A stretch of 29,153 nt of DNA from a virus. This document shows, in pieces, positions 2 to 27,039 of the stretch (position 1 is the stretch's first letter; the number at the start of each line of letters is the position of its first letter). A program made the position numbers and the translations under genes. The notes under the pieces are model-generated. The model saw only the letters and a program-made list of their open reading frames with translations, made no database searches and was not told the origin of the DNA. The DNA lies in IMG/VR virus record IMGVR_UViG_3300030333_001914, positions 1-29,153 of that record. The stretch is one strand, 5' to 3'.

Positions 2-1417
2 GTAGCAATATTATCTATTGATGATTTACCTGAAAATAACATAGCAGAAAAGAGAGCAATTAAATGGATTGCAAATGCTATAGGATTGTTTGAAGATGAA
101 ATAGAATCACAAGTAGATATATATGGAGATTTAGGAGAAGCCCTTTTAGAAATGGACTTTGGGAAAAAAGAAGATTCAAATATTTCTATAAGTATGTTTT
201 TCAATTTGTTAATATTAAACTGTTCATCAATGGACAGTGAAAATTATAGAATAATAAGAAGTCATATTAATGAAATGTCATCAAGAGAGATTAAATGGTT
301 TGTTAGATATTGGTTAAGAAAGCCAAGAAACGGTATTAATAATAGCACTATGGTTAAAGTAATGGATAAAAGATATGCAGGTAATAATGTAAAGAAGTTA
401 TCAATGTTTTATCCTAATTCTGAGTTAGAAGAATTATTATCTGCTGGTAAAACTGTTAAGGCTAGACTTATTCATGGTAGTTTTGTAAAACCAATGTTAG
501 CAAAACCCTATGCGGCAAAACATAAACCTGACAATGAAATTATAGATATTAAATATGATGGTAATAGATATCAAATTCATAGTGAAAGCGATATAATTAT
601 TTTTAACAGAAAGGGAAAAATTGTGACAAGTCAATTCCCTGATGTTGTAGAATGGGTTCAAAAGATTGATAAGAATTTTATTGTTGATGCTGAGATATAT
701 CCAATAAACAATGATGGTTCACCTGCTGAACATAAACTAATGGCTAAAAGAGTCCATAAAAAAGATGTTCAAGAAGCAGTAGATGAATGTCCTGTTAGAC
801 TTGCAGTATTTGATGTTCTTTCTTCAAATGGTTTAGTTATGTTAGACGAACCTTTGTTTGCCAGAATAGAAGAGTTAGATAAAATAATACCAGAAGAACA
901 TAAAGCATATAGATTCTCCGAAGAACATACTATGAAAAGTGCATATAATATTGCTATCAATAGAGGCTTTGAAGGAGTTATGTTAAAAGACGCTGACTTA
1001 ACTTATCAATCAGGTAAAAGAAGTGTGGGTTGGTTAAAGCACAAACCACCCCGTATTGATTTAGATGTAGTTATTGTATCTGCACAATATGGTAAAGGTA
1101 AAAGAGCAGGATGGTTTGGTTCTTTTGGTATTGCAGTTAAAGATGGCCCAGACTATGTTAATGTTGGAAGTTGTGGAACAGGCTTTTCAGAAGATAATTT
1201 GATGTATTTAACTAATCATCTCAGAAAGAACATAGAAAGTTATGAAGGAGATACTTATCATGTATTACCTAGAATTGTATTACAGGTATCATGCGATTTA
1301 ATAAGTAAAGACAGTGATGGTAATGTTGGTCTGAGGTTTCCCCGATGTGTGCGAATCAGAACCGATAAGTTCCCGTCAGATATTGATACCCTGCAAAGGG
1401 TGAAGGAGTTGATGTAA
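2..1417 (+). CDS. ATP-dependent DNA ligase (5'-truncated by window edge)
   Basis: Joins nicked DNA by lysine adenylation, here probably sealing Okazaki fragments of the viral genome. The nucleotidyltransferase motifs appear in order: motif I KYDG with the adenylated Lys encoded at 551-553, VDAEIY (motif III), EGVMLKD (motif IV), WLKHKP (motif V), and a C-terminal OB-domain motif VI, RFPRCVRIR. The N-terminal DNA-binding domain is incomplete. The frame is open to the first base of the window with no ATG in it. The TTG at 86 is the first start-like codon but is internal, so the true start lies to the left. The gene is followed directly, with zero spacing, by the next one. The motif set and C-terminal OB domain fit archaeal LigB/Lig1-type enzymes rather than NAD-dependent ligases. 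Confidence 0.93.
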   Translation, partial: VAILSIDDLPENNIAEKRAIKWIANAIGLFEDEIESQVDIYGDLGEALLEMDFGKKEDSNISISMFFNLLILNCSSMDSENYRIIRSHINEMSSREIKWFVRYWLRKPRNGINNSTMVKVMDKRYAGNNVKKLSMFYPNSELEELLSAGKTVKARLIHGSFVKPMLAKPYAAKHKPDNEIIDIKYDGNRYQIHSESDIIIFNRKGKIVTSQFPDVVEWVQKIDKNFIVDAEIYPINNDGSPAEHKLMAKRVHKKDVQEAVDECPVRLAVFDVLSSNGLVMLDEPLFARIEELDKIIPEEHKAYRFSEEHTMKSAYNIAINRGFEGVMLKDADLTYQSGKRSVGWLKHKPPRIDLDVVIVSAQYGKGKRAGWFGSFGIAVKDGPDYVNVGSCGTGFSEDNLMYLTNHLRKNIESYEGDTYHVLPRIVLQVSCDLISKDSDGNVGLRFPRCVRIRTDKFPSDIDTLQRVKELM

Positions 1418-3376: not shown

Positions 3377-3922
3377 ATGAATATATTTATATTAGATGAA
3401 TGCCCAGAAGAAAGCGCAAAGCAAATGATGGATAAACACGTAGTAAAAATGCCTACTGAAAGTATGCAAATGATTTCTACTTGTATGGATTATTTTGGAT
3501 TACCAAGTCCATATAAACCTGTTATGTTAAACCATCCTTGTACTATTTGGGCTAGACAATCAAGAGAAAATATGCGTTGGTTATTGAGACATACTAATGC
3601 ATTATGTAAAGAGTATACTGTTAGGTATAACAAAAAGCACAAAGTAGAAGAAACACTTGAAGAATGGATGCCTACTATTATAACAATGTTAGGCGACCTT
3701 CCTTCCAGTGGTCTAACTCCTTTTGCTCAAGCCATGCCTGACAGATACAAAGATGACTTAGATGCTTGTAAAGCATATCAAAGTTATTATCTGGGTGATA
3801 AATGGTTTTTTGCATCTTGGAAAACCGAATTACCAAATTGGTGGCCACCTAATCATATTGATGAAAGATATGCAGCACTTAAAAATGTGAGAGATAAAAA
3901 TGTTATGGACAGAAAAGTATAG
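3377..3922 (+). CDS. Conserved phage protein of the 'DKHVVKM' family
   Basis: 181 residues preceded by GGAGAGA. The N-terminus MNIFILDECPEESAKQMMDK followed by HVVKM, then HPCTIWARQSREN, LCKEYTVRY, and AMPD.YK with a Tyr-rich end, is a pattern I recognise from many marine phage genomes. Those proteins are sometimes labelled pyrimidine dimer DNA glycosylase, although that label is weakly founded. Conserved Asp, Lys, His and Cys residues suggest an enzyme. The biochemical role is not established by sequence alone. The 3' end overlaps the RFC gene by 23 nt in another frame. Confidence 0.6.
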   Translation: MNIFILDECPEESAKQMMDKHVVKMPTESMQMISTCMDYFGLPSPYKPVMLNHPCTIWARQSRENMRWLLRHTNALCKEYTVRYNKKHKVEETLEEWMPTIITMLGDLPSSGLTPFAQAMPDRYKDDLDACKAYQSYYLGDKWFFASWKTELPNWWPPNHIDERYAALKNVRDKNVMDRKV

Positions 3923-6585: not shown

Positions 6586-7462
6586 AGATAAAAAGGGTAA
6601 TGCCGTTAATAATAACGAAGAGAAAGAGAATGATTTCTTTGCAGAAACAAAGAAACAGATTCTTGCTCAAATACAAGAAAGATTAAATAGAGACAGAAGT
6701 CATCTATTATGTTCTATTACAGGAAACCCCAAAGTGGGTAAGTCTGGAATAGCAATGGATTGTAGAACAGAAGAAGAAATTGAAAAGGGAATGAAGGTTC
6801 TCATTTTAGATTTTGATGATGGTTGTGAACCAACATGGAGAACAAATTGGAATTCTGACCCTAATATTGTTATATTCAACCCATTAGCAGTAAGGGTTGA
6901 TGGAACTACCGATTGGGAAAAGACATTCAATAATGCAAATTATTTCTGCGCATATGCACAGGAATTAATTGATGAAGGTAATGTTAAAGCGTTTATTTTT
7001 GATGGGGTAGATAAAGCGTTTGAAGGGTCTAGTGATGTGCTAAGAGAGTTGTTAGTTAAGCAACAATCAAGAGAAGGTAGTATTGTTAAGGCCACAGATT
7101 CTGTTAGAGTTTCCACATTAGATTGGAAGATTAGAAACAGAATTTACAATAGGCTTTTAGATTTAGTTTGTAATCTAAAGTGTGATAGATTTCTTATTAC
7201 ACACATGAAGCCTGTATATGATAACATTAATGTGCCTACACCTGTTGGTGAAGTTCCAGATTGGCATAAAAGCACACCTGCTAGGTTTGTGCAAATGTTG
7301 CATATAACAAAACAACCTGCTGAAAACAGCACTAATTATATTGCTGAACTTGAAGCGAGTAAAACTAATCCAGAATTAGTAGGTAATAAGTGGGTTATCT
7401 TTTCAACAAATGGAAAGAACGAATGGTTCGGCATTGACGAACTAAGAGAGGGAACAATATGA
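6572..7462 (+). CDS. RecA/RadA-like P-loop ATPase (Sak4/AAA_24 type)
   Basis: 296 residues from the ATG at 6572, chosen because a perfect archaeal Shine-Dalgarno GGTGAT lies just upstream. The longer frame needs a TTG at 6560. Walker A is GNPKVGKS at 51-58, followed by VLILDFDDG (strand 2 with acidic end) and a Walker B AFIFDGVDKAF. Then comes a strand FLITHMKPV, as in RecA-fold recombinases and phage Sak4-type annealing ATPases. The size and single core domain fit a virus-type RecA-like protein better than full cellular RadA (no N-terminal HhH domain). Likely role: recombination or replication restart. It overlaps PCNA by 4 nt. Confidence 0.65.
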   Translation: MDWTKDKKGNAVNNNEEKENDFFAETKKQILAQIQERLNRDRSHLLCSITGNPKVGKSGIAMDCRTEEEIEKGMKVLILDFDDGCEPTWRTNWNSDPNIVIFNPLAVRVDGTTDWEKTFNNANYFCAYAQELIDEGNVKAFIFDGVDKAFEGSSDVLRELLVKQQSREGSIVKATDSVRVSTLDWKIRNRIYNRLLDLVCNLKCDRFLITHMKPVYDNINVPTPVGEVPDWHKSTPARFVQMLHITKQPAENSTNYIAELEASKTNPELVGNKWVIFSTNGKNEWFGIDELREGTI

Positions 7463-8217
7463 ACATAATGATAAGCGTATCTGATTTTAAAGATGCGGTT
7501 GAGGCAATTTGGCTAAAAGGCAAATATAAGTCCTCAACCACATCTAAGACTGATGTTGTAAGCAATTCATGCTTATGTGTCTTGAAGACAAACCAACTCG
7601 CATTCTATAATGGAAATGATAAATGCGCATTGAATGTAAATAAAAATATTGAATATCCTTGCCCAGAAGATAAAGAAAAAATGTTTATTTTTGATATTGA
7701 AAAGGCAATGAAATACCTTAAAACATTTAAAGGTGATTTGTATTTAAGATTAACTGATTCAAATCTAATGATGAAATGTAATAGTTCTACTGCTAGAATA
7801 CCATTATTAGTAGAACATACTGCTATAGGATTAATTAGTAAAATTATTAATATAGATATTAAACCGCCTGTAATTTTTGGTAAAACTGAATTGCCTTGTC
7901 AATTAATGTTTAACGGTAAAGCCTTTGCAGATGCAATTAAATTTTGTAATGTAGTAGGAACTGCAACGTTTAAGATTAATTACAGTGCAGATTCACCACA
8001 AGCGATTGTTTCTTCTAGAAGTTTTAATAGAACAGAAAAAGCAAGTCAAAGTTTTGTTGTTATTAATCCAAATGAAGAAAGCATGACAGTAGAGTTTTCT
8101 GCACCATTAGATAAATTTTGTAACGATGAAGTTATGACTATATTTAGTGGTGATGATAAACCTATTCTTTTAATAGGAACAGATAGAAAGTTAGTGATAG
8201 CACCATATGTGAGGTAG
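7459..8217 (+). CDS. pcn: PCNA-like sliding clamp
   Basis: 252 residues, the normal length for a PCNA protomer (two clamp folds). The C-terminal half carries the recognisable end VMTIFSGDDKPILLIGTDRK and a final VIAPYVR, equivalent to the conserved P-L-x-L and LAPRV-type C-terminus of archaeal PCNA. The N-terminus (ISVSDFKDAVEAIW) is also clamp-like. Partners encoded nearby are RFC small subunit, the split polymerase (PIP box QTTLDKWW) and possibly the P-loop protein ending in ITLNDFM. ATGA overlap with the RecA-like gene and 5-nt spacing to the polymerase gene indicate one operon. Confidence 0.88.
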   Translation: MNIMISVSDFKDAVEAIWLKGKYKSSTTSKTDVVSNSCLCVLKTNQLAFYNGNDKCALNVNKNIEYPCPEDKEKMFIFDIEKAMKYLKTFKGDLYLRLTDSNLMMKCNSSTARIPLLVEHTAIGLISKIINIDIKPPVIFGKTELPCQLMFNGKAFADAIKFCNVVGTATFKINYSADSPQAIVSSRSFNRTEKASQSFVVINPNEESMTVEFSAPLDKFCNDEVMTIFSGDDKPILLIGTDRKLVIAPYVR

Positions 8218-8222
8218 ATAAA

Positions 8223-9938
8223 ATGATTATTAGTGTATCAGATAAAAATAATATAATTGGAATTAGATATAGAGATGAAAAGAATAAGCGTGTGGAAAAG
8301 GCAGTAGGATTTGATGATTTCAAACCCTACTTTTATATTCTTGCTACCGCAAAAAGGCCAGAAGAAGCGGTTATTACACATAAGTATACCAAAAGAAAAG
8401 TAAAAACTAAAATACATTATGAATTAACTAACGAAAAAAACCTTCAAGGTCAAGAATTAGTTAAAGTAACATGGTCTCCTTCTCAACCAGAACTTTCTAA
8501 AACGTTGAGAAACCTATGGCCAAATACTTATGAAGCAGATGTGGCTTACCATTATAGGTATGCTATTGATAACTTTACAGAATTTCCTAATTACGAATTG
8601 CGAAAATTTTATTGGGATATGGAATGGGTATCTGATGACCATCAACATAACGGTGCAATTACTTGTATTTGTTATTATGATAGTTATGATAAATTTTACT
8701 ATGTTTATACTTGGTTTCCAAATTCAAGAGACAATGATAAACAAAGCAAATTAACAATGTCCACATTTGGTGAAGACGAGCCAGGAGTTGTAAGAGTTTT
8801 TGATTCAGAAGAATTAATGCTTCTTGAATTTTTGTTTGACATTCAAGACAAAGACCCCGATATGTTAATTTCATGGTTTGGTTCTAAGTTCGATTTACCA
8901 AAACTTATTACTAGACTTAAGCATAATAATTTAGACCCAAGAGGTTTATCTCCCTTTAATGATGTTAAAGGCGTGTATTTTGATGTTATGGAAGGCACGT
9001 ATAAATTAACAAGAACAATAGAAAATTATTCTCCTATAGAACAACCGATTAGAGGAAGATTGACTTTAAACCTTGACTTAGCATTTGAAAGACAATGGAA
9101 TGATGCTCAGAAGGGAACGTTGCCTTCTCTTGCATTAGATTATATATCAGAAAATATATTAGGGGATAATAAATTAGTTAGTGAAAAATTCCCCGATAAA
9201 AATGATTTCTTTAATAGAGGATGGTTAGAAGATACTGAAACATATATTAAATATGCATATAAAGATGTAGAATTAATTGTAAGGATTGATGAAGAAAACT
9301 TTACATCAGAAGCAGTTTTATCTTTACAACGTTTACTGATTGCCCCCTTTGATGCTTGTTTTTATGCAAGTAATATGGGCGGTATATACTTTATGCGTAA
9401 TGCTGATTGGAAAGCACCAACAGGTTCTAAAGATGTTAAAGTGGATTATGAAGGTGCTATGATTTATGACCCTTCATCAGAAGGTACAAACGGATTACAT
9501 TTAGGTGTTGCTGCATTTGACTATGCGGGTTTGTATCCATCAATGATGATTGCAAGAAATATATCATGGGAAACTAAGTCTGATAAACCAACAGAATTTG
9601 GTGTTAATATTCTAACACCGAGAGATTTTAGTGATGAAACAGTAAAGGATATGAGATACTTCAAAACTGATAAGTTAGGTCTTTTACCTAGAGCAGTTTT
9701 AGAATTAAAAGAACTTAGAAATGAATATAAGAAAAAGATGAAAGAGGCTACTACAAAAGAAGAGTATGCAAAGTGGAATACTAATCAAATGGCTGTAAAG
9801 CGATTAATGGCCTCTTTCTACGGTGTGGTTGGTTATCAAGGATTTGCTTGGGCTGATACTGATTTAGCCGCTAGTATTACTGCTAGTGCTAGAGAAGCAA
9901 TTAGAGAAGCAGCGTTTATAGTGAGAGGATTAGAATGA
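8223..9938 (+). CDS. polB: Family B DNA polymerase, N-terminal part (exonuclease + palm A/fingers)
   Basis: 571 residues. Exonuclease motifs: Exo I WDMEW (Asp132, Glu134), Exo II SWFGSKFD, Exo III YAYKD (Tyr344, Asp348). Polymerase motif A is FDYAGLYPSMM (Asp433). Motif B is KRLMASFYG (Lys526). The frame stops after the helix ITASAREAIREAAFIVRGLE, directly before where motif C should begin. No conserved block is missing, and the last bases form an ATGA junction with a tiny gene. The remaining palm and thumb are encoded at 10381-11289. Division into a part of about 570 aa and a smaller part echoes the split PolB of Methanothermobacter, where two subunits assemble into an active enzyme. Confidence 0.95.
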   Translation: MIISVSDKNNIIGIRYRDEKNKRVEKAVGFDDFKPYFYILATAKRPEEAVITHKYTKRKVKTKIHYELTNEKNLQGQELVKVTWSPSQPELSKTLRNLWPNTYEADVAYHYRYAIDNFTEFPNYELRKFYWDMEWVSDDHQHNGAITCICYYDSYDKFYYVYTWFPNSRDNDKQSKLTMSTFGEDEPGVVRVFDSEELMLLEFLFDIQDKDPDMLISWFGSKFDLPKLITRLKHNNLDPRGLSPFNDVKGVYFDVMEGTYKLTRTIENYSPIEQPIRGRLTLNLDLAFERQWNDAQKGTLPSLALDYISENILGDNKLVSEKFPDKNDFFNRGWLEDTETYIKYAYKDVELIVRIDEENFTSEAVLSLQRLLIAPFDACFYASNMGGIYFMRNADWKAPTGSKDVKVDYEGAMIYDPSSEGTNGLHLGVAAFDYAGLYPSMMIARNISWETKSDKPTEFGVNILTPRDFSDETVKDMRYFKTDKLGLLPRAVLELKELRNEYKKKMKEATTKEEYAKWNTNQMAVKRLMASFYGVVGYQGFAWADTDLAASITASAREAIREAAFIVRGLE

Positions 9939-10069
9939 GTACATTAGATACTATTGAATTATTAATAAAGATTGCTGCATTATCATTTGTATTAACATAT
10001 GGTATGTGGTATATAGGTAGTGCTATTGATTTTGTATTAATTAAATATTTAGGAGAGAGAAATAAATGA
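9935..10069 (+). CDS. 44-aa single-TM microprotein between polymerase halves
   Basis: Begins in the ATGA that closes the polymerase N-part and ends in another ATGA. The peptide starts MSTLDTIELL and holds one hydrophobic stretch (about residues 9-37, containing AALSFVLTYGMWYIG), then a basic tail with GERNK. AGGAGAGAG near its 3' end serves as ribosome-binding site for the next gene. No family recognised. Conserved overlaps on both sides argue that it is translated. Confidence 0.5.
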   Translation: MSTLDTIELLIKIAALSFVLTYGMWYIGSAIDFVLIKYLGERNK

Positions 10070-10155
10070 AGTGTAGATGTGGAGAAAAAATGGTAGCATT
10101 CCATTATATTTATAAATGCTTTAAATGTAAAAACGAAGAATGGAGGGGGTTATAA
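10066..10155 (+). CDS. 29-aa Cys-rich microprotein
   Basis: Starts with an ATGA overlap and a good upstream AGGAGAGA. The peptide has CRC at 3-5 and CFKC at 18-21, a minimal four-Cys metal-binding knuckle, and ends NEEWRGL. No family recognised. It is second in the cassette between the two polymerase genes, and the following gene starts inside it. Confidence 0.5.
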   Translation: MKCRCGEKMVAFHYIYKCFKCKNEEWRGL

Positions 10156-10292
10156 TTAGAACTTGTAAATCCTGCAATCAACCGATTAATCAGAAGAACA
10201 CAAAAGCATCTGATTTAACAGGAAGAATATTATGTGGTATTTGTTATTTAGAATGGAAAAGAAAAGAAAGAAAGGAGAAAGGATTAAAATGA
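10140..10292 (+). CDS. 50-aa zinc-finger-like microprotein
   Basis: ATG at 10140 lies inside the previous small gene in another frame. CKSC at 9-12 and CGIC at 32-35 form a two-knuckle zinc site, followed by a highly basic tail (WKRKERKEKGLK) suitable for nucleic-acid binding. It ends in ATGA with the next gene. Function unknown. Confidence 0.5.
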   Translation: MEGVIIRTCKSCNQPINQKNTKASDLTGRILCGICYLEWKRKERKEKGLK

Positions 10293-10384
10293 AAAATTAT
10301 TGTTCGTGTCAATTTAATAAAGGACATTCAAATGTTGATAAAGAAGGTAAATGTACATATTGTAGATTAAAGGTGAGACCATGA
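10289..10384 (+). CDS. 31-aa Cys-rich microprotein
   Basis: Starts in an ATGA overlap after AAGGAGAAAGG. CSC at 5-7 and CTYC at 27-30 could coordinate one metal. It ends in ATGA with the polymerase C-terminal gene, and its own last codons contain GGTGAGACC, placed as the ribosome-binding site for that gene. No family recognised. Confidence 0.5.
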   Translation: MKNYCSCQFNKGHSNVDKEGKCTYCRLKVRP

Positions 10385-11289
10385 AAGTAGTATACGGTCA
10401 TACAGATTCTATTTATGTTCAAGTTCCAATGAATAGAACAGGCGAAGTTCTTGATTTATTAAACACCAAAGTTAGAGAAAAGTTTCCTAATGTTATGGGA
10501 TTAGAAGAACACCCTGTAGTATTAGAATTTGAAAAGTATTATGAGTCTTTAGGGGTAGGTATAACAAAGAATAGAAATGCAGGTCTTATTTCTTGGAAGG
10601 ATGGTGAATATTTAGATGAGCCAGAATTTGTTATGACAGGGTTTTCTGCTAAAAGAGTAGCAATTACTAAATTAGCAAAAACTGTTCAATTAGAAGTTTT
10701 AAATAGATGGGTAGCACAACAATCAGAAAAAGAAATAACTGATTATTTAAGAAAAGAGTATAATAGAATTTTAAAAGGTAATTTTTCTATAGATGAAGTA
10801 ATTAACAGAACCAGATTTAGACCTGAAAGATTTCAATATAAATGTGAATCATGTGATTTTACTTATAGTGTTGATGATTTATTAGAAATACATAATGAAT
10901 TCTCAACAAATGCTTTTTGTAAAAAGTGTGGAGATGATTTATCTATTGTTACTTTAGCAGGTAAAAGGCCTCAAATTAGTAGTGGCGTTGAAGGTGTTCT
11001 TTGGTATAATCAATTTGCTTCTTCACCGATTACAGATTCATATATTTATATGAAAGTATCAGATGATACTAATAGACCAAGTTATGTAAACCCAATAACA
11101 GGACAAAGAAAAAGACCATCTTTTGTATCTGCACCTAATTTGGTTGATTTAGAAACAGAGAAGCCAGATTATAAACACTATGCAGATTCTGTTATTAAGA
11201 AGGCAGAACCTATTTACAGGGCGATGGGTTGGGATTTGAATAAAATAACAATTGATGAAAATCAAACAACATTAGATAAGTGGTGGTAG
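10381..11289 (+). CDS. polB: Family B DNA polymerase, C-terminal part (motif C, thumb, PIP box)
   Basis: 302 residues. Motif C appears at once: YGHTDSIYV, with His7 in place of the usual first Asp of DTDS and the catalytic Asp9 kept. KNRNAG (63-68) matches the KKRYAG-type block. A four-Cys site (Cys155, 158, 180, 183) is inserted in the thumb region and is not typical of archaeal PolB. The extreme C-terminus QTTLDKWW is a canonical PCNA-interacting motif (Q-x-x-h-x-x-a-a). Joined to the upstream 571-aa part the total is about 873 residues, normal for an archaeal or viral family B polymerase. The two parts probably assemble into one enzyme. Confidence 0.93.
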   Translation: MKVVYGHTDSIYVQVPMNRTGEVLDLLNTKVREKFPNVMGLEEHPVVLEFEKYYESLGVGITKNRNAGLISWKDGEYLDEPEFVMTGFSAKRVAITKLAKTVQLEVLNRWVAQQSEKEITDYLRKEYNRILKGNFSIDEVINRTRFRPERFQYKCESCDFTYSVDDLLEIHNEFSTNAFCKKCGDDLSIVTLAGKRPQISSGVEGVLWYNQFASSPITDSYIYMKVSDDTNRPSYVNPITGQRKRPSFVSAPNLVDLETEKPDYKHYADSVIKKAEPIYRAMGWDLNKITIDENQTTLDKWW

Positions 11290-13739: not shown

Positions 13740-13849
13740 ATAACCTAGATTGTAGATTATTTCTCATATTCCCTTTATGTGGTTATAATTGGGAATGGGA
13801 TGCTATCTTAGAAGGAGTATGGTTGGTGATGAATATATGCAGAGATTAA
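13736..13849 (+). CDS. 37-aa hypothetical microprotein
   Basis: Starts in an ATGA with the primase stop. The peptide is hydrophobic and Trp-rich, with RLFLIFPLCGYNWEWDA and three Cys. It ends 13 nt inside the next gene. Its 3' end provides the GGTGAT that positions the ERCC4 start. It may be a real membrane or Cys peptide or only a coupling leader. Confidence 0.35.
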   Translation: MNNLDCRLFLIFPLCGYNWEWDAILEGVWLVMNICRD

Positions 13850-14517
13850 TTATTGATAGTAGAGAGAATTCAGAACTGTTTAAAGAGATAACAGATGAAT
13901 GTGTTAAAATGAATATATTAACTGAAAAACAATGGTTGGAAATAGGAGACTATGTATTTTCTGATATGTGTTTTGAAGCAAAGTCTTCTATTGATTTTTT
14001 ACAGTCTGTTATTAGTAAAAGGTTATGGAACCAATTAGATAATATGGATAGGCATTATGAGCATTGTATTCTTATAATACATGGTTCTATTCATGATGCT
14101 TTATCGTATAAAAATTACACAAATCTAAATATTCCTAATAGGTTATTAAGTAATAAATTTTATGGCGCATTAGGAAGAATCACTTTAGATACAGATGTAA
14201 AGGTGTTTTGGACAGAAGGCCCAAAAAAGGCTGCTAAAATTGTAGCAACATTATGTAAAATGAGGCCCATAGAAAGAGATGTAATAAAACCACACTTATT
14301 AAAAAGAATAACTACAGAAGATTTAAGGTTAAATATTCTTTGTAGCATTAAAGGAATTAGTGAAGTTAAGGCTCAAACATTAATACACGAGTTTGGGTCT
14401 ATTATGGAAATAGGAGAAGCCACAATAGATGAAATATCTAAATTAGATGGTTTTGGTAGTGTCTTAGCAAAGAGAATAATAGACACGTTAAATAGTGAAG
14501 AGAAGGTAATAATATGA
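13837..14517 (+). CDS. XPF/Mus81-type structure-specific nuclease (ERCC4 + HhH)
   Basis: 226 residues from the ATG at 13837, six bases after GGTGAT. Upstream in-frame starts at 13789 and 13819 lack good spacing. ERCC4 nuclease motifs: IIDSRE (Asp7, Glu10), GDYV (37-40) and FEAKSSIDF with Glu47, Lys49 and Asp53. The family signature is ERKxxxD, and here the Arg is Ala. The C-terminal part (about 150-222) is a double helix-hairpin-helix (ISEVKAQTLIHEFGS and LDGFGSVLAKRI). It lacks the helicase domain found in Hef. Likely role: cutting branched or flapped DNA in replication or recombination. ATGA overlap with the next gene. Confidence 0.88.
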   Translation: MQRLIIDSRENSELFKEITDECVKMNILTEKQWLEIGDYVFSDMCFEAKSSIDFLQSVISKRLWNQLDNMDRHYEHCILIIHGSIHDALSYKNYTNLNIPNRLLSNKFYGALGRITLDTDVKVFWTEGPKKAAKIVATLCKMRPIERDVIKPHLLKRITTEDLRLNILCSIKGISEVKAQTLIHEFGSIMEIGEATIDEISKLDGFGSVLAKRIIDTLNSEEKVII

Positions 14518-18793: not shown

Positions 18794-19372
18794 TCACTCC
18801 GTAAATGAATACTTTAAGTATAAATCTGCTTCTGTATCGCCACCTGAATTAGTAGCAGTTCCTGTTAATTTGAAAATAACATAATTTCCGTCTGAAGGCC
18901 AATTATAACCACCACCTCTACCCGAACCCGGAGTTATTTGGAAATAAGTGCCTGTTCCACCACTACTTGTTGCATCTTGACTATTATTACTATTACCACC
19001 AACAGAAGCAGTTGGATGAGCACTACCAGAACTAAAATTGTGTGAATATACTCCATTAGTCCATGAAAAAGATGTAGCCCCTGTTGCTCGTAAATAAGCA
19101 AAAGGAGTTATTCTAATATATCCTATACTGTTGAAATCTCCTAAATCACCCGCGCTAACTTCTCTTTCATATTGCGTTCCAAAAGATTCACTTGTTGCAC
19201 TTGACCAATCAGAATAATCAACGGTCATTATGTCTGGCCCTTCATCAGTAATCTTAAATGAATTATTTTGACCACTACTTGCGGCTTCTGCAATACTAAC
19301 ACCTGTTGGTGCAGCAACAGTAGCATTATTGCCTTGTTGAGCAACAACACCAATTGTACCAATAAAACTCAT
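18794..19372 (-). CDS. Gly/Ser-rich candidate fibre-tip or fibre-associated protein
   Basis: 192 residues from the ATG at 19372, which overlaps the giant fibre gene by ATGA. An 18-nt longer frame begins inside that gene. The protein is low in charge and rich in Gly, Ser, Thr and Asn, with a glycine-rich segment (GSGRGGGYNW) near the C-terminus and a beta-rich end (LYLKYSFTE). It resembles adhesin tip proteins encoded just downstream of phage long fibres. The receptor is unknown. Confidence 0.6.
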   Translation of the reverse strand: MSFIGTIGVVAQQGNNATVAAPTGVSIAEAASSGQNNSFKITDEGPDIMTVDYSDWSSATSESFGTQYEREVSAGDLGDFNSIGYIRITPFAYLRATGATSFSWTNGVYSHNFSSGSAHPTASVGGNSNNSQDATSSGGTGTYFQITPGSGRGGGYNWPSDGNYVIFKLTGTATNSGGDTEADLYLKYSFTE

Positions 19373-22300
19373 GCACCCACCTGAACCCATTGACTTTCAC
19401 TACTACTGATATTAACACAAACATAAGCAGTTGCATCATTATCTGCTACTGCTGCATTAGTAGCCCAATTACTAATAATAGCATCACCTGAGCCTAATGC
19501 TACGGTTGCACTACCACCTGTATTATTGAATATAGTAAATTGAGTTCCAACTGCTGCATCTGCTGGTAAAGTTAATGTTCCACTAGTCCAATAAACATAA
19601 GAACCACTTTGTGCTTGAGTAAGGGTTGTATTACTTGATACAGACACAACATCTGCTAATTGATTTAATTTAACATTTCCTGTTGAATCTCCTGTAAACC
19701 ATGTAACACCACCATCTCCATCTGAAATAACTAATTGACTATCTGCAGTTCCATCTGGAACAGCCGCACCACCAATTACTAAATTATCTGAACCCGTTGT
19801 AATTGAATCGCCAGCATCATACCCTATAACAATGTTATTATCACCAGAAGTTATTGCTTCACCTGAATAATTCCCAATGGCTAAGTTTTGTTCACCGCCA
19901 TTTACTGTGCCTCCTAAAGCATCTTTACCTATTGCTATGTTATCACTAGCCCATCCGTTATGGTAAGCATCTTGTCCTATAGCAACGTTTCTATTACCAT
20001 TATAGTTGTTATAACCTGCATCTTGCCCTAATAATACATTTCCAGCACCACCTGTTAAATTAAGACCAGCAGAAGCACCTATTACTACATTGTAATCTCC
20101 TGTGCAAGTAGAAGCAGCGTGTTGTCCTATTGCTACTGTTTTTTCTGTATCTAAAGAGTTAGAAGAACCATAAGACCCAATAATAACTGAATAACCTTTA
20201 GTATTACTCATTGACCTACCAGCATAACTACCAATAGCAATAGAACCATGATTATTAGTTGCTGATAATGCTTCATATCCTATTGCTATATGGTCGCTAC
20301 CGCTTGTTGCCGCATCTAACGCTAAATTTCCTATTGCTATATTTCTATCAGCAGAAGTTAATGAAGCAAATACATCTTTTCCTATACCTATGTTATCTGA
20401 TGCAGAACTTAATGTTCCTGTTGTTGGTGCTGAACCATCACTATCTGTCTGAATTAAAAGTGAATCAGTAAAGTTAGTAGCATCCATCAATACATCAGTT
20501 AATTCATTTAATACAGAAGCACCGCCACCTGCTGCGGCTTCTAAAGCAATCTGAGTATTAGCATGGTCATAAGTTAATACATAGTTATCTTGCCCTGAAC
20601 CTACTGATTGGTCTGTATCAAACTTAAAATTACCTAATGATACTTGACCTGTTCCGCCCGGATTAATTTCTATATCATTGTTTTCACGCCCAATGTGTAT
20701 TATTCCGGGCGCACTTGAACCACCACTTCTTAATTCTAAATCAACGCTCGCACTATCACATTTTATTACTTGTGGGTCGGTTGTTCCATCTAATCTAAAA
20801 GTATCAGCATACATTCTAAACTTTCTTGAACCACCCATAGATACGCCTATTGTATTTACTCCATCAAGATAAAAGCCTGTATCATTATCATTACTAAAAC
20901 TAAATGTTGGAGAACCTGCAGAACCATCAACACCACCTGCGTTTGAATCACCACTTGAAACAGTAGCCCATGTTAAACCACCATTATTACCTGATTGTTT
21001 TTGTAGGAATTGACCATCAGAACCTGCATTAGAAATATAAAGATTATCTTCATCAACTGATTCAGAAGATAAATGTTCTAAATCAACTGCCCCTGCTGCA
21101 ATATGTTCTGAATCAATTGCATCATCAGCAATTTTAGCACCTGTAATTGCATCAGCAGCAATATAACCACTTGCTATTGCAGTTCCATTCCATGTTCCTG
21201 TTGTTATTGTTCCTACTGTGGCTATACTTGAATGACCCGCAACAGGTGAGTAAATACTACCAATAGCAGTTCCACCAATAGTAATTGCATCTGCTTCTAA
21301 TGTTCCATCAATATCTGCATTACCGGATATATCAAGACTTGTTGCTTCTATTTCTCCTGATGCTTTCATTTTTATTACAGGAGTTTCATTGTTAGTTTTG
21401 AAATGAATTTCATTATCTGTAGTAAAATCTATATTATTATGTGCATCTCTACCAATAATTCTTCCTGTGTTATAATCAGTAGTAATTCCTGTTTGTGCGC
21501 CAGAAACGGCAATAGTTCCTGTTGATGTAATTGTTCCACCTGAAAGACCTGTTCCAGCAACTATTTGTGTAACAGTTCCTGTTGAACCTGCACCGCTTAA
21601 TGTTTGCCAAGAACCATCTCCACGTAAATATTTATTATTATCACCTGCTGCAGTAGCAGGAACTAATCCTGTTTCAGAAGCATTTGTTCCATCACTTCCT
21701 ACAAACGGTATTACTTCTACTGTTTTTGTTCCTCCTAATGTAACTTCTTTACCTGCTAAAAGAGTAACAGATAATGAACCATTTGCAGTATGACCTGCCG
21801 CAGTAGTTCCTCTATATCCTCTTGTACAATTGTCTAAAGTTCTACCATCAGCATTAACTCCTTTATATCTTATTAATTCACTTTCTAAAGAAACAACACC
21901 TTCTGTTGGAAAACCATTATTACTATTTACTAATATATCTCCTGATTCACCTGCAGTTTGATATAAAACACTTGATAAAGATTTATCAGCAATAGCAAAA
22001 GCACTAACTTTAGCACCTGTTACTGCACTATTTGCTATCTTTGCTTCAGTAATAGCATTATCTTGAACTGTATCTGCTGTTCCTGTTAAATCACCTGTAA
22101 CATCACCTGTAACATCACCAGAAATATTACCTGTTATTGTTCCTACTCTTAAGTTAGCATAAGATGAAATACTTACATTTCCAGCAGTAGTTCCTGTATC
22201 TGCTGTATTAATTGCCGCCCATGTATCGGCTGATTCATCCCAAATAAAACCTACATTTGTAGAAGAACCTCTTTCTCCTATTATTCCTATATCAACAGAT

Positions 22301-25300
22301 GGTGTTCCTGATTGTCCATTAGCCAAATATACTAATGGGTCTTCAACACTTAGAGTTGCAGTATTTACGGTGGTTGTATCTCCCGATACAGTTAAATCAC
22401 CCGCTATTGTGACTGTTGTATCACTAGAACCTATTGTTAAAGTATTAGCACCAACAGTATCAAAAATAGTATGATTGGCTGCAGTTAAATCTAAATCGGT
22501 TAATCCTGTTAATGCTGTATCTACATTTAATGTAGTTCCACTTCTGCTTAAGTTTGTTCCAGCAGTATAAAGTCCTGATAAATCAACAGTAGGATTAGAT
22601 GCACCACTAACAGTAGCAGTTAAAGTTCCTGATGATAACCCTAATCCTGTTGTATAATAGTTAGTATCTGTATTAGTTATTGCTCCTGTTGCCGCCCCAA
22701 GATAACCCCATTGTGCGGCTGAAATTGTTGTAGAACCAATATTCTCTAATTGTGCTCCTTCATCTTCAGTTAAGTTAGAAATTTCAGTTACTTGAGATGC
22801 TGCAATTGTTTTATTTGTAAGAGTATCTGAACTAGATGCAGTAATAAAACCAGCACCATTAGTTAATTGATTATTATTGGTTGGTATTGTTGTTGAATTA
22901 AAAGCGTTAGAACCAAATATCTCAGATGATAGTTTTCTTTTTTGAGTTCCATTATCAAGAACAATAAATTCATCTTCACCTGTTACCCAAGATTGGGTCA
23001 TATCTGCAAGGTCACCCAAAGCCAGAGATAAATTACCTGAACCTGTAACAGTTCCACTTAATCCTGTATTAGTGCCTACTGAAGTTACTGTGCCTGTAGT
23101 TGTAGAATAACTATAACTTTCAATCTTTTCTTTAATAGCACCTGAAGACATTAAATGGTCATCTGTATCTACAAACTCAGAACCTATATCTATATCATTA
23201 AAAGAATGTCCTCCTAATGTAATAGAACCTGCGGTAGTAAATCCACCAGCAGTAATAGTTCCTGATGTAGTATCATCAGCATTATTCTTTAGGAATGCAT
23301 CATCAACATTAAAAGTAGTTCCACTTAATGATATATTAGTTCCTGCTGAATAAGTAGTATTAGTATAGTTATTTGCGTGAACAGTTCCTGCACCATCAAC
23401 AGTTAAATCAACAGTGTTAGTTGCACTTGCTGCTATTCCATCTAACTTAGACTTTAATGTATCTGTAAAGTTATTTTGTGTTAATCCCCCATCTCCAACA
23501 GAATATGTAGTATCTTGTGTTGGTATTGTAAATGTTGCATCAGGTATTGTTACAGTTCTATCTGCTGATAAAGTTCCAGCCAACAAAGTTAATTCATTAG
23601 CGTCTGCCGCACTTCCCTCAAATACTACACCATTACTTGTACTAACTGTTTCTACATTGTTTGTTGTTGTTGTTCCTGTTACTACAATTGAACCGGGAAA
23701 AGTCGTTGTTGTGCTTCCATCACCGATAGTAAGTGTATTACTAGCCATAGCATTATTAAGAGCACTTCTTACATTTGCTGCATCAGTTACATCAGCAGAG
23801 GCCTCTATGCCATCTAATTTAGTCTTAAGAGTATTAGTAAAGTTATTTTGTGTTAAACCACCATCACCGACAGAATAAGTAGTATTTGTATCTGTTGAAG
23901 CAATTGTTATTGTATCACTAGCCGCAGTAGTAGTTAAAGTTACATTAGAACCTGCTACAAGGGTTAGAGTATCTGTTGTTGTATCTGCTACTACATCATC
24001 TTGACCACTTACTGAAATTGTCTTAAATGAATATTCATTGGCTTCACCACTTGAACCTGTAGTAACATATCTTCCGTCTAAATCTACAGTTAAATCTGCT
24101 AATGAACCTGTTCTACCTACTGTTAAAACTCCATCACTTGTATTAAATGCTAATGAGTTTACATAATCATTTGTATCAGTATCAGGGTCAGCCCAAGTTC
24201 CGTCTTTTCTAAGATATAAACCACCATGAGATGAAGCACCTGCAGGAACTAAACCAGCAGCATAGGAGTTTCCTGAACCCATAGCAGAATAAGTTGTATT
24301 AGTATAATTACTAGAATGAATAGTTCCTGCACCACTTGCTGTCCAATCAATTATTTCATTGCTTGTAATGCCTAAATCTGAAAGAACCTCAGCAGCAGTT
24401 CTACCTTCAATAGAAGTTCCATCAACCTTTAAGAAATCATTATCCGCTACATTAGCATTAGCAACTAATACATTTCCATCAGATATACCTGATGCTAAAC
24501 CTTTTACAAATGCAAGATTGGTTACTTCTGAATCCATTAATGCTCCTGCTGCTGTAACATTTGTTGTATCTGTAACATCAGCAGATGCTTCTATAGCGTC
24601 TAATTTATCATGATGTGCAATAGACATTAATCCTGCGGCTGAACCTGTTGCTTCTGAATAAGTTGTATTTGTATAATTGGAAGAATGAATAGTTCCTGCG
24701 CTTGAGGCTGTCCAATCAATTATTTCATTATCCGCTATTCCTAAATCAGAACGAACTTCTGCTGCTGTTCTTGCTTCTAATGTTGTAGCATCGCTCCATC
24801 TAGCATATTCGTTTGCATTGATTGTTCCTGTCTTTGATACATCACCTGTATTAGCAGTAGCATTTGCTGCAACCCCACTAAGTTTAGTTTTCTCAGCATC
24901 AGTATAAGCAGCAGTAACTAAATTCCAATCACCTGTTCCTGTTGCAGATGCAGAATATACTTTATTATCATCAGTATCAACCCAAATATCTCCAATTGAT
25001 AATGCAGTAGGAGTAGAAGATTGCCTAAATACTTGATTCTTTGTTGCTCCATCTTCAAATTCTAATGAGATAGTTGCAGCATTACCATTTGCTAGACCTA
25101 ATGTTTTGGTATCGCCACTAACTGTTTTTTCTAAGGTAATTCCGCTACGAATAGTAGCAGTTGAATTATTATCTACAGAACCAAGTCCTACATCTGCCTT
25201 TGTTGTATTAGCATTTAATATAGTTGCTTCTGTTGCTTTAGTGCTTCCATCTTCTAATAATAGATTTCCTGAAGAACCCATCGTTGCGCCAACAGTAGCA

Positions 25301-27039
25301 CCACTAGCAGGTAATGTAGTAAATACTGTTCCTGTTCCACTACCACTACTTACTAATTGATTAGCAGTAATTTTAGTTAAAAAGTCCTTCATCTTAACTT
25401 TTTTATACGCACTAGCACCATCATCATAAATAGGAATTACATCATTATCAATATCTCCTGCTGTTCCTAAATCAGTAGCACTATCAAATTCATAACTAAC
25501 TTTAGCAGTATTAGCAGTAATAGCATTTGCTTGTGATGTAGTTATTCCTACCTTTGCTGTATTGGCTGTTATTGCATTTGCTTGTGATGTAGTAGCACCA
25601 ACAGTAGCACCTGCTTCTATACCTGCTAATTTAGTTCCAGTTCCTGATTCTAATGAATCTAAATCACTTAAACCAATTGTTGTTTTATCAAACCCTACTA
25701 ATACCCATTCTCCTGAAGCAATTTCATCTGCACCTACTGATTCAGCAACATATAATTTATTGCTATCATTAGTATCATACCATTGGTCGCCTATTGCTGT
25801 AGAGGTAGGAATACCATCTTGTTTAAAGGTTTTAATCTGTGCTTGGTTTAATACATTACTCAAACCAACATCAGCCTTTGCTAAAGATAAATTAGTTTTT
25901 ACATTAGATAATTGTGTTGATGTTAAACTTTGATTATTAACATCAATTCTTAATCTGTTTCCTAAAGCAGTAGTGACTGTTGAGGAAAAACTAGCATCAT
26001 CATTTATTGCAGCCGCTAATTCATTTAAGGTATCTAAAGCACCGGGAGCAGATGAAACTAAATCAGTTACTTTACCATCAACATATGTTTTTATTGACTG
26101 TTGACTTGCTGGTTTAGTAGCACTATTAGAAGCCATATCATCTTCATCTAATAAATCAGCAGATATAGCATAATTGTTAGCACTAGCGGCTATGCCGTCT
26201 AGTTTAGATTTAAGAGTATCAGTAAAGTTGTTTTGTGTAAGTCCTCCATCTCCTACTGAATAAGTAACATAACTAGGTACAGCCCATTCCATACCATTGC
26301 TAGTATATTTAAGGAATTTATCTGTACCACTAGGAGCATTGTGTATATCTAGTTTACCTTCTGCAATTGAATCATTTGCTAACATAGCATTTGTTACAGT
26401 TCCTGTATCTCCTGATGTAATTAGATTTACGTTATTACTGCTAGGGTCTGGGAATGATATTTCTCCTGTACTACTACCGACTAAAACCTTTCCTGCTTTA
26501 GTTATTCTTAATGTTTTAGTTTCATTATTAACAGCAGTAAACTCAGAATCCAATTTCTTTATTCCATAGAATTGTATTGGTCTTGCGCCTGCACTTGCAC
26601 CTGCAACCACTTTAATTAAACATACAGGAATATCACCTGCAGTTAAACTAGCAACTTTAACAACACCAGAACTATTTGCTGTATTTGAATTACTTGCATG
26701 GGTTGCAGTTCTAAGGTCTAAAGCAGAAGAATCTTTTGGTATTACTAAGAAAGCATAATGGTCTTTTGCACCTGATGAATTTAAATCATCATTTACAGCA
26801 GTAGGAGTTCCTGTTTTATATTCTCCCTTATCAAACCAGCCACCAGCACTTACAGCAAATGTGCTTCCATTCTGTATTACATTTAATCCATGAGCAACAA
26901 AAGAACCTGCTGTCTGTTGATTTAATGCATTTAATATTCCTGTATGAATACTATCTGTTCCATCCACTAAACCAGCAAGATTGCTTGCTGTGCCTAATGT
27001 ACTAATTCCTAAATCTGTGTCTCTTGTTTGTGTTCCCAT
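19369..27039 (-). CDS. Giant repeat-rich tail fibre / adhesin (2,556 aa)
   Basis: One uninterrupted frame of 7.7 kb. The N-terminal 200 residues are non-repetitive and probably attach to the tail. The central part holds fibre repeats: three VGDGGLTQNNFT...KLDGI units, TTSQANAITANTAKV in tandem, EIIDWTAS.AGTIHSSNYTN twice, DVTGDVTG, and a segment with VSGDTTTVNTATLSVEDPLV that is common in marine phage fibres. Residues about 2210-2425 carry repeated NIAIG.DA and NVVIG.SAG motifs like the trimeric YadA-type beta-roll head. The C-terminus is a beta-rich domain. It is likely a homotrimeric host-recognition fibre. Its size is large for a phage fibre. Confidence 0.9.
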   Translation of the reverse strand: MGTQTRDTDLGISTLGTASNLAGLVDGTDSIHTGILNALNQQTAGSFVAHGLNVIQNGSTFAVSAGGWFDKGEYKTGTPTAVNDDLNSSGAKDHYAFLVIPKDSSALDLRTATHASNSNTANSSGVVKVASLTAGDIPVCLIKVVAGASAGARPIQFYGIKKLDSEFTAVNNETKTLRITKAGKVLVGSSTGEISFPDPSSNNVNLITSGDTGTVTNAMLANDSIAEGKLDIHNAPSGTDKFLKYTSNGMEWAVPSYVTYSVGDGGLTQNNFTDTLKSKLDGIAASANNYAISADLLDEDDMASNSATKPASQQSIKTYVDGKVTDLVSSAPGALDTLNELAAAINDDASFSSTVTTALGNRLRIDVNNQSLTSTQLSNVKTNLSLAKADVGLSNVLNQAQIKTFKQDGIPTSTAIGDQWYDTNDSNKLYVAESVGADEIASGEWVLVGFDKTTIGLSDLDSLESGTGTKLAGIEAGATVGATTSQANAITANTAKVGITTSQANAITANTAKVSYEFDSATDLGTAGDIDNDVIPIYDDGASAYKKVKMKDFLTKITANQLVSSGSGTGTVFTTLPASGATVGATMGSSGNLLLEDGSTKATEATILNANTTKADVGLGSVDNNSTATIRSGITLEKTVSGDTKTLGLANGNAATISLEFEDGATKNQVFRQSSTPTALSIGDIWVDTDDNKVYSASATGTGDWNLVTAAYTDAEKTKLSGVAANATANTGDVSKTGTINANEYARWSDATTLEARTAAEVRSDLGIADNEIIDWTASSAGTIHSSNYTNTTYSEATGSAAGLMSIAHHDKLDAIEASADVTDTTNVTAAGALMDSEVTNLAFVKGLASGISDGNVLVANANVADNDFLKVDGTSIEGRTAAEVLSDLGITSNEIIDWTASGAGTIHSSNYTNTTYSAMGSGNSYAAGLVPAGASSHGGLYLRKDGTWADPDTDTNDYVNSLAFNTSDGVLTVGRTGSLADLTVDLDGRYVTTGSSGEANEYSFKTISVSGQDDVVADTTTDTLTLVAGSNVTLTTTAASDTITIASTDTNTTYSVGDGGLTQNNFTNTLKTKLDGIEASADVTDAANVRSALNNAMASNTLTIGDGSTTTTFPGSIVVTGTTTTNNVETVSTSNGVVFEGSAADANELTLLAGTLSADRTVTIPDATFTIPTQDTTYSVGDGGLTQNNFTDTLKSKLDGIAASATNTVDLTVDGAGTVHANNYTNTTYSAGTNISLSGTTFNVDDAFLKNNADDTTSGTITAGGFTTAGSITLGGHSFNDIDIGSEFVDTDDHLMSSGAIKEKIESYSYSTTTGTVTSVGTNTGLSGTVTGSGNLSLALGDLADMTQSWVTGEDEFIVLDNGTQKRKLSSEIFGSNAFNSTTIPTNNNQLTNGAGFITASSSDTLTNKTIAASQVTEISNLTEDEGAQLENIGSTTISAAQWGYLGAATGAITNTDTNYYTTGLGLSSGTLTATVSGASNPTVDLSGLYTAGTNLSRSGTTLNVDTALTGLTDLDLTAANHTIFDTVGANTLTIGSSDTTVTIAGDLTVSGDTTTVNTATLSVEDPLVYLANGQSGTPSVDIGIIGERGSSTNVGFIWDESADTWAAINTADTGTTAGNVSISSYANLRVGTITGNISGDVTGDVTGDLTGTADTVQDNAITEAKIANSAVTGAKVSAFAIADKSLSSVLYQTAGESGDILVNSNNGFPTEGVVSLESELIRYKGVNADGRTLDNCTRGYRGTTAAGHTANGSLSVTLLAGKEVTLGGTKTVEVIPFVGSDGTNASETGLVPATAAGDNNKYLRGDGSWQTLSGAGSTGTVTQIVAGTGLSGGTITSTGTIAVSGAQTGITTDYNTGRIIGRDAHNNIDFTTDNEIHFKTNNETPVIKMKASGEIEATSLDISGNADIDGTLEADAITIGGTAIGSIYSPVAGHSSIATVGTITTGTWNGTAIASGYIAADAITGAKIADDAIDSEHIAAGAVDLEHLSSESVDEDNLYISNAGSDGQFLQKQSGNNGGLTWATVSSGDSNAGGVDGSAGSPTFSFSNDNDTGFYLDGVNTIGVSMGGSRKFRMYADTFRLDGTTDPQVIKCDSASVDLELRSGGSSAPGIIHIGRENNDIEINPGGTGQVSLGNFKFDTDQSVGSGQDNYVLTYDHANTQIALEAAAGGGASVLNELTDVLMDATNFTDSLLIQTDSDGSAPTTGTLSSASDNIGIGKDVFASLTSADRNIAIGNLALDAATSGSDHIAIGYEALSATNNHGSIAIGSYAGRSMSNTKGYSVIIGSYGSSNSLDTEKTVAIGQHAASTCTGDYNVVIGASAGLNLTGGAGNVLLGQDAGYNNYNGNRNVAIGQDAYHNGWASDNIAIGKDALGGTVNGGEQNLAIGNYSGEAITSGDNNIVIGYDAGDSITTGSDNLVIGGAAVPDGTADSQLVISDGDGGVTWFTGDSTGNVKLNQLADVVSVSSNTTLTQAQSGSYVYWTSGTLTLPADAAVGTQFTIFNNTGGSATVALGSGDAIISNWATNAAVADNDATAYVCVNISSSESQWVQVGA
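19765..20410 (-). repeat. YadA-head-like beta-roll repeats in the fibre
   Basis: About ten to twelve degenerate units near 14-22 residues with cores NIAIGNLAL, HIAIGYEAL, SIAIGSYAG, NVVIGASAG, NVLLGQDAG, NVAIGQDAY, NIAIGKDAL, NLAIGNYSG and NIVIGYDAG. This matches the left-handed parallel beta-roll of trimeric autotransporter heads. Confidence 0.75.
22083..22135 (-). repeat. Short in-frame GDVTGDVTG repeat in the fibre
   Basis: Tandem 12-bp units encode GDVT repeated, followed by GDLTG. This small run marks a flexible or beta-helical linker before the AKIANSAVTGAKV segment. Confidence 0.6.
23421..23509 (-). repeat. Fibre repeat A, copy 2
   Basis: Module VGDGGLTQNNFTDTLKSKLD followed by GIAASATN. 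It lies about 380 bp from copy 3, and both have a NNYTNTTYS or TTYS-type strand beside them. Confidence 0.7.
23797..23880 (-). repeat. Fibre repeat A, copy 3
   Basis: Same VGDGGLTQNNFT module, here with NTLKTKLDGIEASADVT. A shorter relative, HHDKLDAIEASADVT, lies near 24575-24620. Confidence 0.7.
24288..24780 (-). repeat. Fibre repeat B, two copies
   Basis: Two copies of a module of about 40 residues, RTAAEVxSDLGIxxNEIIDW followed by TASxAGTIHSSNYTNTTYS, at about 24651-24780 and 24288-24410. They are separated by a non-repeat stretch with LAFVKGLASGISDGN. Confidence 0.75.
25503..25600 (-). repeat. Fibre repeat C, tandem pair
   Basis: Two adjacent units of about 48 bp each encode TTSQANAITANTAKV, a repeat familiar from marine phage tail fibres. 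Near-identical core, with a variant third-position pattern. Confidence 0.75.
26174..26267 (-). repeat. Fibre repeat A, copy 1
   Basis: Encodes TYSVGDGGLTQNNFTDTLKS and on through KLDGIAASA. Closely related to copies at about 23421-23509 and 23797-23880 inside the same gene. DNA differs by silent changes, so the copies are not recent duplicates. Confidence 0.75.

Follow-up and report, generated by a model that had tools for sequence, protein, structure and literature searches.

A family B DNA polymerase (PolB) whose conserved motifs are distributed over two genes, with four tiny genes lying between them, raises the question of whether such a locus is the product of an assembly error, a decaying gene, or a working polymerase encoded in two pieces, and of what part the intervening genes play. 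The window analysed here, a stretch of 29,153 nucleotides from a 31.1 kb virus record (IMGVR_UViG_3300030333_001914), displays the following features at this locus:

7459-8217, plus strand: sliding-clamp (PCNA-like) gene, identified by its position 5 nt before polB-N and by weak profile matches
8223-9938, plus strand: polB-N, 571 aa, with the 3'-5' exonuclease domain, palm part 1 with motif A, and fingers with motif B (Pfam PF00136/PF03104, AlphaFold2, Foldseek, motifs)
9935-9938, plus strand: ATGA stop/start overlap from polB-N to small gene 1 (sequence)
9935-10069, plus strand: small gene 1, 44 aa, one hydrophobic (membrane-like) segment; junction family 16
10066-10155, plus strand: small gene 2, 29 aa, two Cys pairs; junction family 44
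10140-10292, plus strand: small gene 3, 50 aa, two CxxC; junction family 6, present in 22 genomes; overlaps gene 2 by 16 nt
10289-10384, plus strand: small gene 4, 31 aa, Cys-rich; junction family 11, present in 10 genomes; starts at an internal ATG of the open reading frame (ORF) 10232-10384
10371-10376, plus strand: AGGTGA, ribosome-binding-site-like, upstream of the polB-C start (sequence)
10381-10384, plus strand: ATGA overlap from small gene 4 to polB-C (sequence)
10381-11289, plus strand: polB-C, 302 aa, with motif C (YGHTDS), palm part 2, thumb and a PIP-like C-terminal motif (Pfam PF00136, profile alignment, Foldseek)
10843-10929, plus strand: zinc-ribbon-like CxxC...CxxC insertion in the thumb region of polB-C, a pattern found in 51 of 116 split rows of the polymerase alignment and in 0 of 24 intact rows
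11263-11286, plus strand: PIP-like motif QTTLDKWW at the C end of polB-C (Q 97%, L 96% and W 97% in the 116 split rows)

Both polymerase genes share a single Pfam DNA_pol_B domain, with profile positions 36-199 in polB-N, which also carries DNA_pol_B_exo1, and 222-371 in polB-C. The first gene contains ExoI (YWDMEW), ExoII (SWFGSKFDLPK), ExoIII (YxxxD), motif A (DYAGLYPSMM) and motif B (KRLMASFYG), and the second begins with MKVVYGHTDS, which includes motif C, and ends with the PIP-like QTTLDKWW. Pfam and motif searches thereby confirm the motif placement of the original prediction, which assigned exo I-III, A and B to the first gene and motif C, thumb and PIP to the second. Foldseek relates polB-N to Tgo/KOD PolB (E about 1e-25) and polB-C to PolB (E 1e-8 to 1e-6), so that the DNA_pol_B and exonuclease domains, ExoI-III and motifs A-C of a family B polymerase are all present across the two chains.

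The point of division was then defined from structure models and alignments. The AlphaFold2 model of polB-N (pLDDT 91) stops where its last helix, 546-570, stops, and that of polB-C opens with the motif-C hairpin (strands 3-7 and 10-13), its palm part being of low confidence and poorly ordered when modelled alone. In agreement, the polB-C profile aligns to archaeal (Tgo/KOD-type) PolB from residue 534, just before motif C. The junction RGLE|MKVVYGHTDS aligns with LGYEVIYGHTDS of intact relatives, with no residue missing. Model and sequence thus concur with the earlier proposal that the first part ends with the helix preceding motif C and the second starts four residues before YGHTDS, and the gapless alignment bears out that no conserved residue is lost.

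Regarding the virus itself, plus-strand genes encode an ATP-dependent ligase, a pyrimidine-dimer glycosylase, an RFC-like clamp loader, a clamp-like protein, PolB, a PDDEXK nuclease and an ERCC4 nuclease, three of them located as follows:

86-1417, plus strand: ATP-dependent DNA ligase (gene-content test for magroviruses)
3377-3922, plus strand: pyrimidine-dimer glycosylase (gene-content test for magroviruses)
13789-14517, plus strand: ERCC4 nuclease (Pfam)

The published magrovirus replication block comprises PolB, DNA ligase, ERCC4 nuclease and DNA glycosylase (PMC10160649), and all four are found in the window. By this replication gene content the window matches a magrovirus-type (order Magrovirales) tailed virus of marine archaea, and it showed no close match in a phage genome collection. 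The clamp gene at 7459-8217 has no PCNA match in Pfam and is very divergent in sequence; a profile built from 14 homologues gave only weak matches (beta clamp E 4e-4, PCNA E 0.04). Large minus-strand genes start at about 17.9 kb, and one 2556-codon ORF at 19369-27039 on that strand takes up roughly a quarter of the whole record.

Scans of viral contigs and genome contigs, each taking the best 80 loci, yielded at least 344 loci, which reduce to 189 distinct junctions whose frequencies are not population estimates. Among the matches listed, 155 of these junctions are split and 34 intact. All 155 split loci are broken at the identical codon, with one or more stops or a frame shift between the halves, and the recurrence of this codon in 155 distinct junctions places the split locus beyond chance. 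The matches listed from the genome-contig scan include two contigs binned in metagenome-assembled genomes, one split (L343) and one intact (L344), which are probably viral contigs. An intact polB at this place in close relatives, named beforehand as an observation that would speak against a maintained split, was not found among these matches; intact polB appears only in a sister clade about 41% identical. In a FastTree analysis of 140 rows (116 split, 24 intact) split and intact sequences fall on opposite sides of one branch with support 100, and upon rooting with two halovirus PolBs, both intact, the split set forms one clade (support 100), the intact marine set being weakly supported as a group (77). 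With an intact outgroup and a single split clade, the split is the derived state.

Neither half shows signs of erosion. ExoI D/E, ExoII D, ExoIII Y/D, motif A D, motif B K and YG, and motif C HTDS are 100% conserved, the PIP-like tail is 96-97% conserved in the 116 split rows, and dN/dS relative to L001 is 0.19 for polB-N and 0.18 for polB-C, indicating similar purifying selection in both. The sequences come from metagenomes only, which is what an assembly artefact or a decaying polymerase gene has in its favor; nonetheless, the same split codon in 155 distinct junctions from many independent assemblies, the invariant catalytic residues, the low dN/dS and the lack of any second PolB match within the 31.1 kb record leave that explanation a negligible probability. 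The view that the arrangement is maintained rather than decaying, advanced from the window alone, is thus upheld by its relatives. Judged from alignments and tree, the split appears to be old, of single origin and kept across a large group of marine-archaeal viruses.

How the two pieces would yield one enzyme is suggested by their translation signals. The polB-C start codon occupies an identical column in 154 of 155 split loci (146 ATG, 4 GTG and 4 TTG), and a ribosome-binding-like site precedes it in 95 of the 155 (61%) versus about 7.6% of control 13-mers. At the level of sequence, this shows two separate cistrons. Joining of the halves after synthesis, by a split intein, a spliced intron or ribosome bypassing, has precedents, as inteins and split inteins are known in archaeal and phage PolB genes (PMC4104785, PMC10189870) and a group I intron in the T4-like gene 43 (PMC2993671). 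For the present locus it is very improbable, since polB-N stops at the helix and polB-C starts with MKVVYGHTDS without any intein extension, no Rfam intron was detected in the window and eight relatives, the conserved start codon and ribosome-binding site favor separate initiation, and even loci devoid of an insert retain the stop and frame shift. A split-intein polymerase was specifically rejected, with zero extra residues at either split end. Considering the invariant catalytic residues, the similar purifying selection on both halves, the own start codon of polB-C and its usual ribosome-binding site, the most likely product is a two-chain polymerase that reassembles without covalent joining.

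In such a scheme, one operon would yield both chains, with separate initiation of polB-C through its own start codon, its ribosome-binding site or ATGA coupling. PolB-N would bring the proofreading exonuclease, motif A, fingers and motif B, and polB-C motif C, the remaining palm, the thumb and the clamp-binding tail, motif A of one chain and motif C of the other building one shared active site by noncovalent association. The split would have arisen once, in the clade ancestor, where the last palm helix is followed by the strand of motif C, and the joint would afterwards have become a favored spot for the gain, loss and exchange of small accessory genes. We consider it very probable that the replicative magrovirus-type PolB consists of two noncovalent chains derived from a single ancestral split, with the joint later used for small-gene exchange and the genes found here being accessory.

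The closest experimental precedent is that of the T4-like Aeromonas phage 25, whose gp43A and gp43B co-purify and polymerise (PMC2988022). As in the window, phages 25 and 44RR encode a viral replicative PolB in two adjacent genes, and phage 25 carries a free-standing GIY-YIG gene between them (PMC2988022). On the contrary, their split lies between motifs A and B (43A, 498 aa, contains motif A, and 43B starts before motif B), and the insert is a homing endonuclease or an untranslated spacer rather than a shifting set of small genes. No nuclease gene lies between the halves in the window, which is hence not a T4-like split by a homing endonuclease. The split PolB3 of Methanobacteriales (Methanothermobacter; Kelman 1999, cited in PMC4104785) is likewise an archaeal family B polymerase of two polypeptides; compared by description, it is cellular and of another PolB group, and the available portion of PMC4104785 proposes faulty intein excision as its origin and reports no small-gene insert. 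PolB is also encoded in two pieces in Nanoarchaeum equitans and in phage and metagenome sequences, where the pieces bear intein halves and are trans-spliced, unlike the halves in the window, which have no intein parts. Further fissions around inserted ORFs, all with products that act together or are proposed to do so, include phage Aeh1 nrdA, split with mobE, the T4 topoisomerase gene, split by mobA (PMC2988022), and the cox2 fission of Campsomeris (PMC5374615). These three are isolated nuclease-linked events and not a clade-wide fixed split with insert turnover.

The gap in the window contains small genes at 9935-10069, 10066-10155, 10140-10292 and 10289-10384, all on the polB strand, and its five joints are, in order, ATGA, ATGA, a 16-nt overlap, ATGA and ATGA, just as the original prediction of four tiny genes linked by 4-nt or short overlaps had it. 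Small gene 3 gave weak FAM76/LIM matches in Pfam, below cut-off. Small gene 4 differs from its counterpart in L001 by a pS of 0.06, compared with about 0.47 for polB, a near-identity despite diverged polymerases that suggests a recent exchange.

Over the 155 split junctions, the insert ranges from -4 to 1732 nt and from 0 to 8 genes, delimited by a simple ORF chain whose caller mildly favors short overlaps; the commonest joint by far is -4 (354 cases). The 151 inserts of at least 60 nt are 99% coding on the polB strand and hold 475 genes (median 56 aa) in about 106 small-protein families, most of them confined to the junction within the fetched flanks and a few also found downstream of polB-C. 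Cys-rich products with two Cys pairs account for 132 of the 475 genes and membrane-like ones for 113, others being coiled-coil or, rarely, nuclease-like. Since pooled pN/pS of the insert families is mostly 0.1-0.4, these ORFs are real genes. A putative winged-helix-like superfamily, joined by profile comparison, has no Pfam match, its fold being an interpretation; it occupies the junction in 3/3, 9/9, 31/42, 1/7 and 0/2 of the deeper split groups and in 0/92 of the crown group that includes the window, and may have an old functional link to the split in several deep groups. Nuclease-like junction genes occur in few relatives: an HNH match slightly under the cut-off in L328, a gene of GIY-YIG type in L342, and genes in L158/L160 that look HNH-like by eye and have no Pfam match. 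In one relative, a 114-aa junction gene (L069:5410-5754, plus strand) matches the CRESS-DNA virus Rep (HUH) domain (Pfam Viral_Rep, E 4e-17), so that a genome of magrovirus type carries a Rep-like domain.

These inserts are far from constant. A bare ATGA joint was found in three separate nested lineages (L039; L093/L097; L080), so inserts get lost, and among L080, L075, L076 and L077, whose polymerases are closely related, no two loci have the same insert (none, 121, 364 and 343 nt, respectively). Among 81 close pairs, junction family content is unlike in 39, and junction length differs by more than 30 nt in 48%, compared with 18%, 12%, 24% and 0% at four other module intervals. The idea of a four-gene cassette maintained as a unit, which the original prediction had favored, does not survive this comparison: the insert is absent in those three lineages and composed of different small genes in most relatives, even near ones, only the halves and the joint being conserved, so that the four genes in the window are only one passing version.

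This turnover bears on whether the small proteins serve the polymerase as assembly factors or regulatory subunits, by keeping its halves together or by tuning it, with their position setting the stoichiometry. Their ATGA translational coupling to both halves, the purifying selection on most families and the abundance of Cys-rich products agree with such a role, yet the lineages lacking an insert keep intact catalytic motifs, replacements elsewhere are unrelated (membrane-like, coiled-coil or nuclease-like), and nearly half of the close pairs differ in content, making it improbable as a general explanation. A helper role may apply in some lineages, given widespread families such as family 6. 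As for the window's four genes, one membrane-like and three Cys-rich, they are better seen as accessory, a role as polymerase subunits being unlikely.

Exchange at the joint may not be restricted to its cargo. L054:7663-8160 marks either a natural recombinant or a chimeric assembly: polB-N of L054 is 99.8% identical to that of L049 and its polB-C about 96% identical to that of L045, the breakpoint falls at the insert end or polB-C start, and upstream DNA is like L049 and downstream DNA like L045. Discord of more than 10 points between N and C identities was observed in 12 of 153 close pairs of the split clade versus 0 of 44 in the intact clade. The joint could, quite tentatively, be a permanent docking site, where an essential gene pair brackets an exchangeable island, newcomers become translationally coupled between two halves of an enzyme, and recombination at the short, conserved motif-C end swaps cargo and polymerase halves among viruses, as suggested by the L054 chimera.

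Split PolB as such is already known from Methanothermobacter and T4-like gp43A/B. Magroviruses of the ON649702 type are, by published description, alike in their genes for PCNA, RFC-S, PolB NTD and CTD and nucleases and in their opposite-facing morphogenesis genes, and the legend of ICTV Fig. 1 names the PolB NTD/CTD for Aoguangviridae, Poseidoniales virus YSH_150918, ON649702 (PMC10768690). The split, its site and the intervening genes go undiscussed in PMC10768690 and PMC10160649. Within the open literature, and with an earlier magrovirus description being possible, a clade-wide fixed split before motif C that serves as a gene-turnover hot spot looks new. An active site shared by two chains throughout a clade would serve as a natural experiment on how much cutting a family B polymerase tolerates without loss, and as the source of a two-part polymerase with a natural cut site beside motif C. 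In addition, with an essential gene on each side, many families, and near relatives differing mainly there, the joint is a natural record of small viral gene gain and loss.

The source of the small genes is indicated by the intact relatives. Every intact locus with the clamp found has an island of small genes, 604-2587 nt long, between clamp and polB, while in the 132 split loci whose clamp could be detected it sits flush against polB-N. By blastp, intact loci contain homologues of six junction families, five of them upstream of polB, and reversed controls gave no such homologues. Pure insertion of foreign genes is weakened by these homologues upstream of intact polB. An origin by tandem duplication of the small-gene island together with polB, followed by complementary loss, instead of insertion or frameshift in one gene, would account for the upstream island of the intact loci, for the five families placed there and for the flush clamp of most split viruses. 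It is nevertheless rather unlikely, as the deep split lineages L101, L196 and L201-203 retain the upstream island besides their junction, which there holds a different, winged-helix-like gene, and as family 98, which occupies the junction in L267 alone, still lies upstream of polB in L201/L203, both deep split loci, just as it does in intact loci. Because these deep lineages keep the upstream island with a different junction gene, later migration of small genes also explains the data. Read most simply, polB was split first, and its upstream joint afterwards gave up the pool of small genes to the joint between the halves. Family 42 (L244:3547-3735, L278:3594-3839) precedes the intact polB of 13 loci and sits within the junction at three split ones, and the upstream island of L196 includes, before polB-N, a gene of the Recombination endonuclease VII family (L196:1424-1864, plus strand; Pfam E 6e-26).
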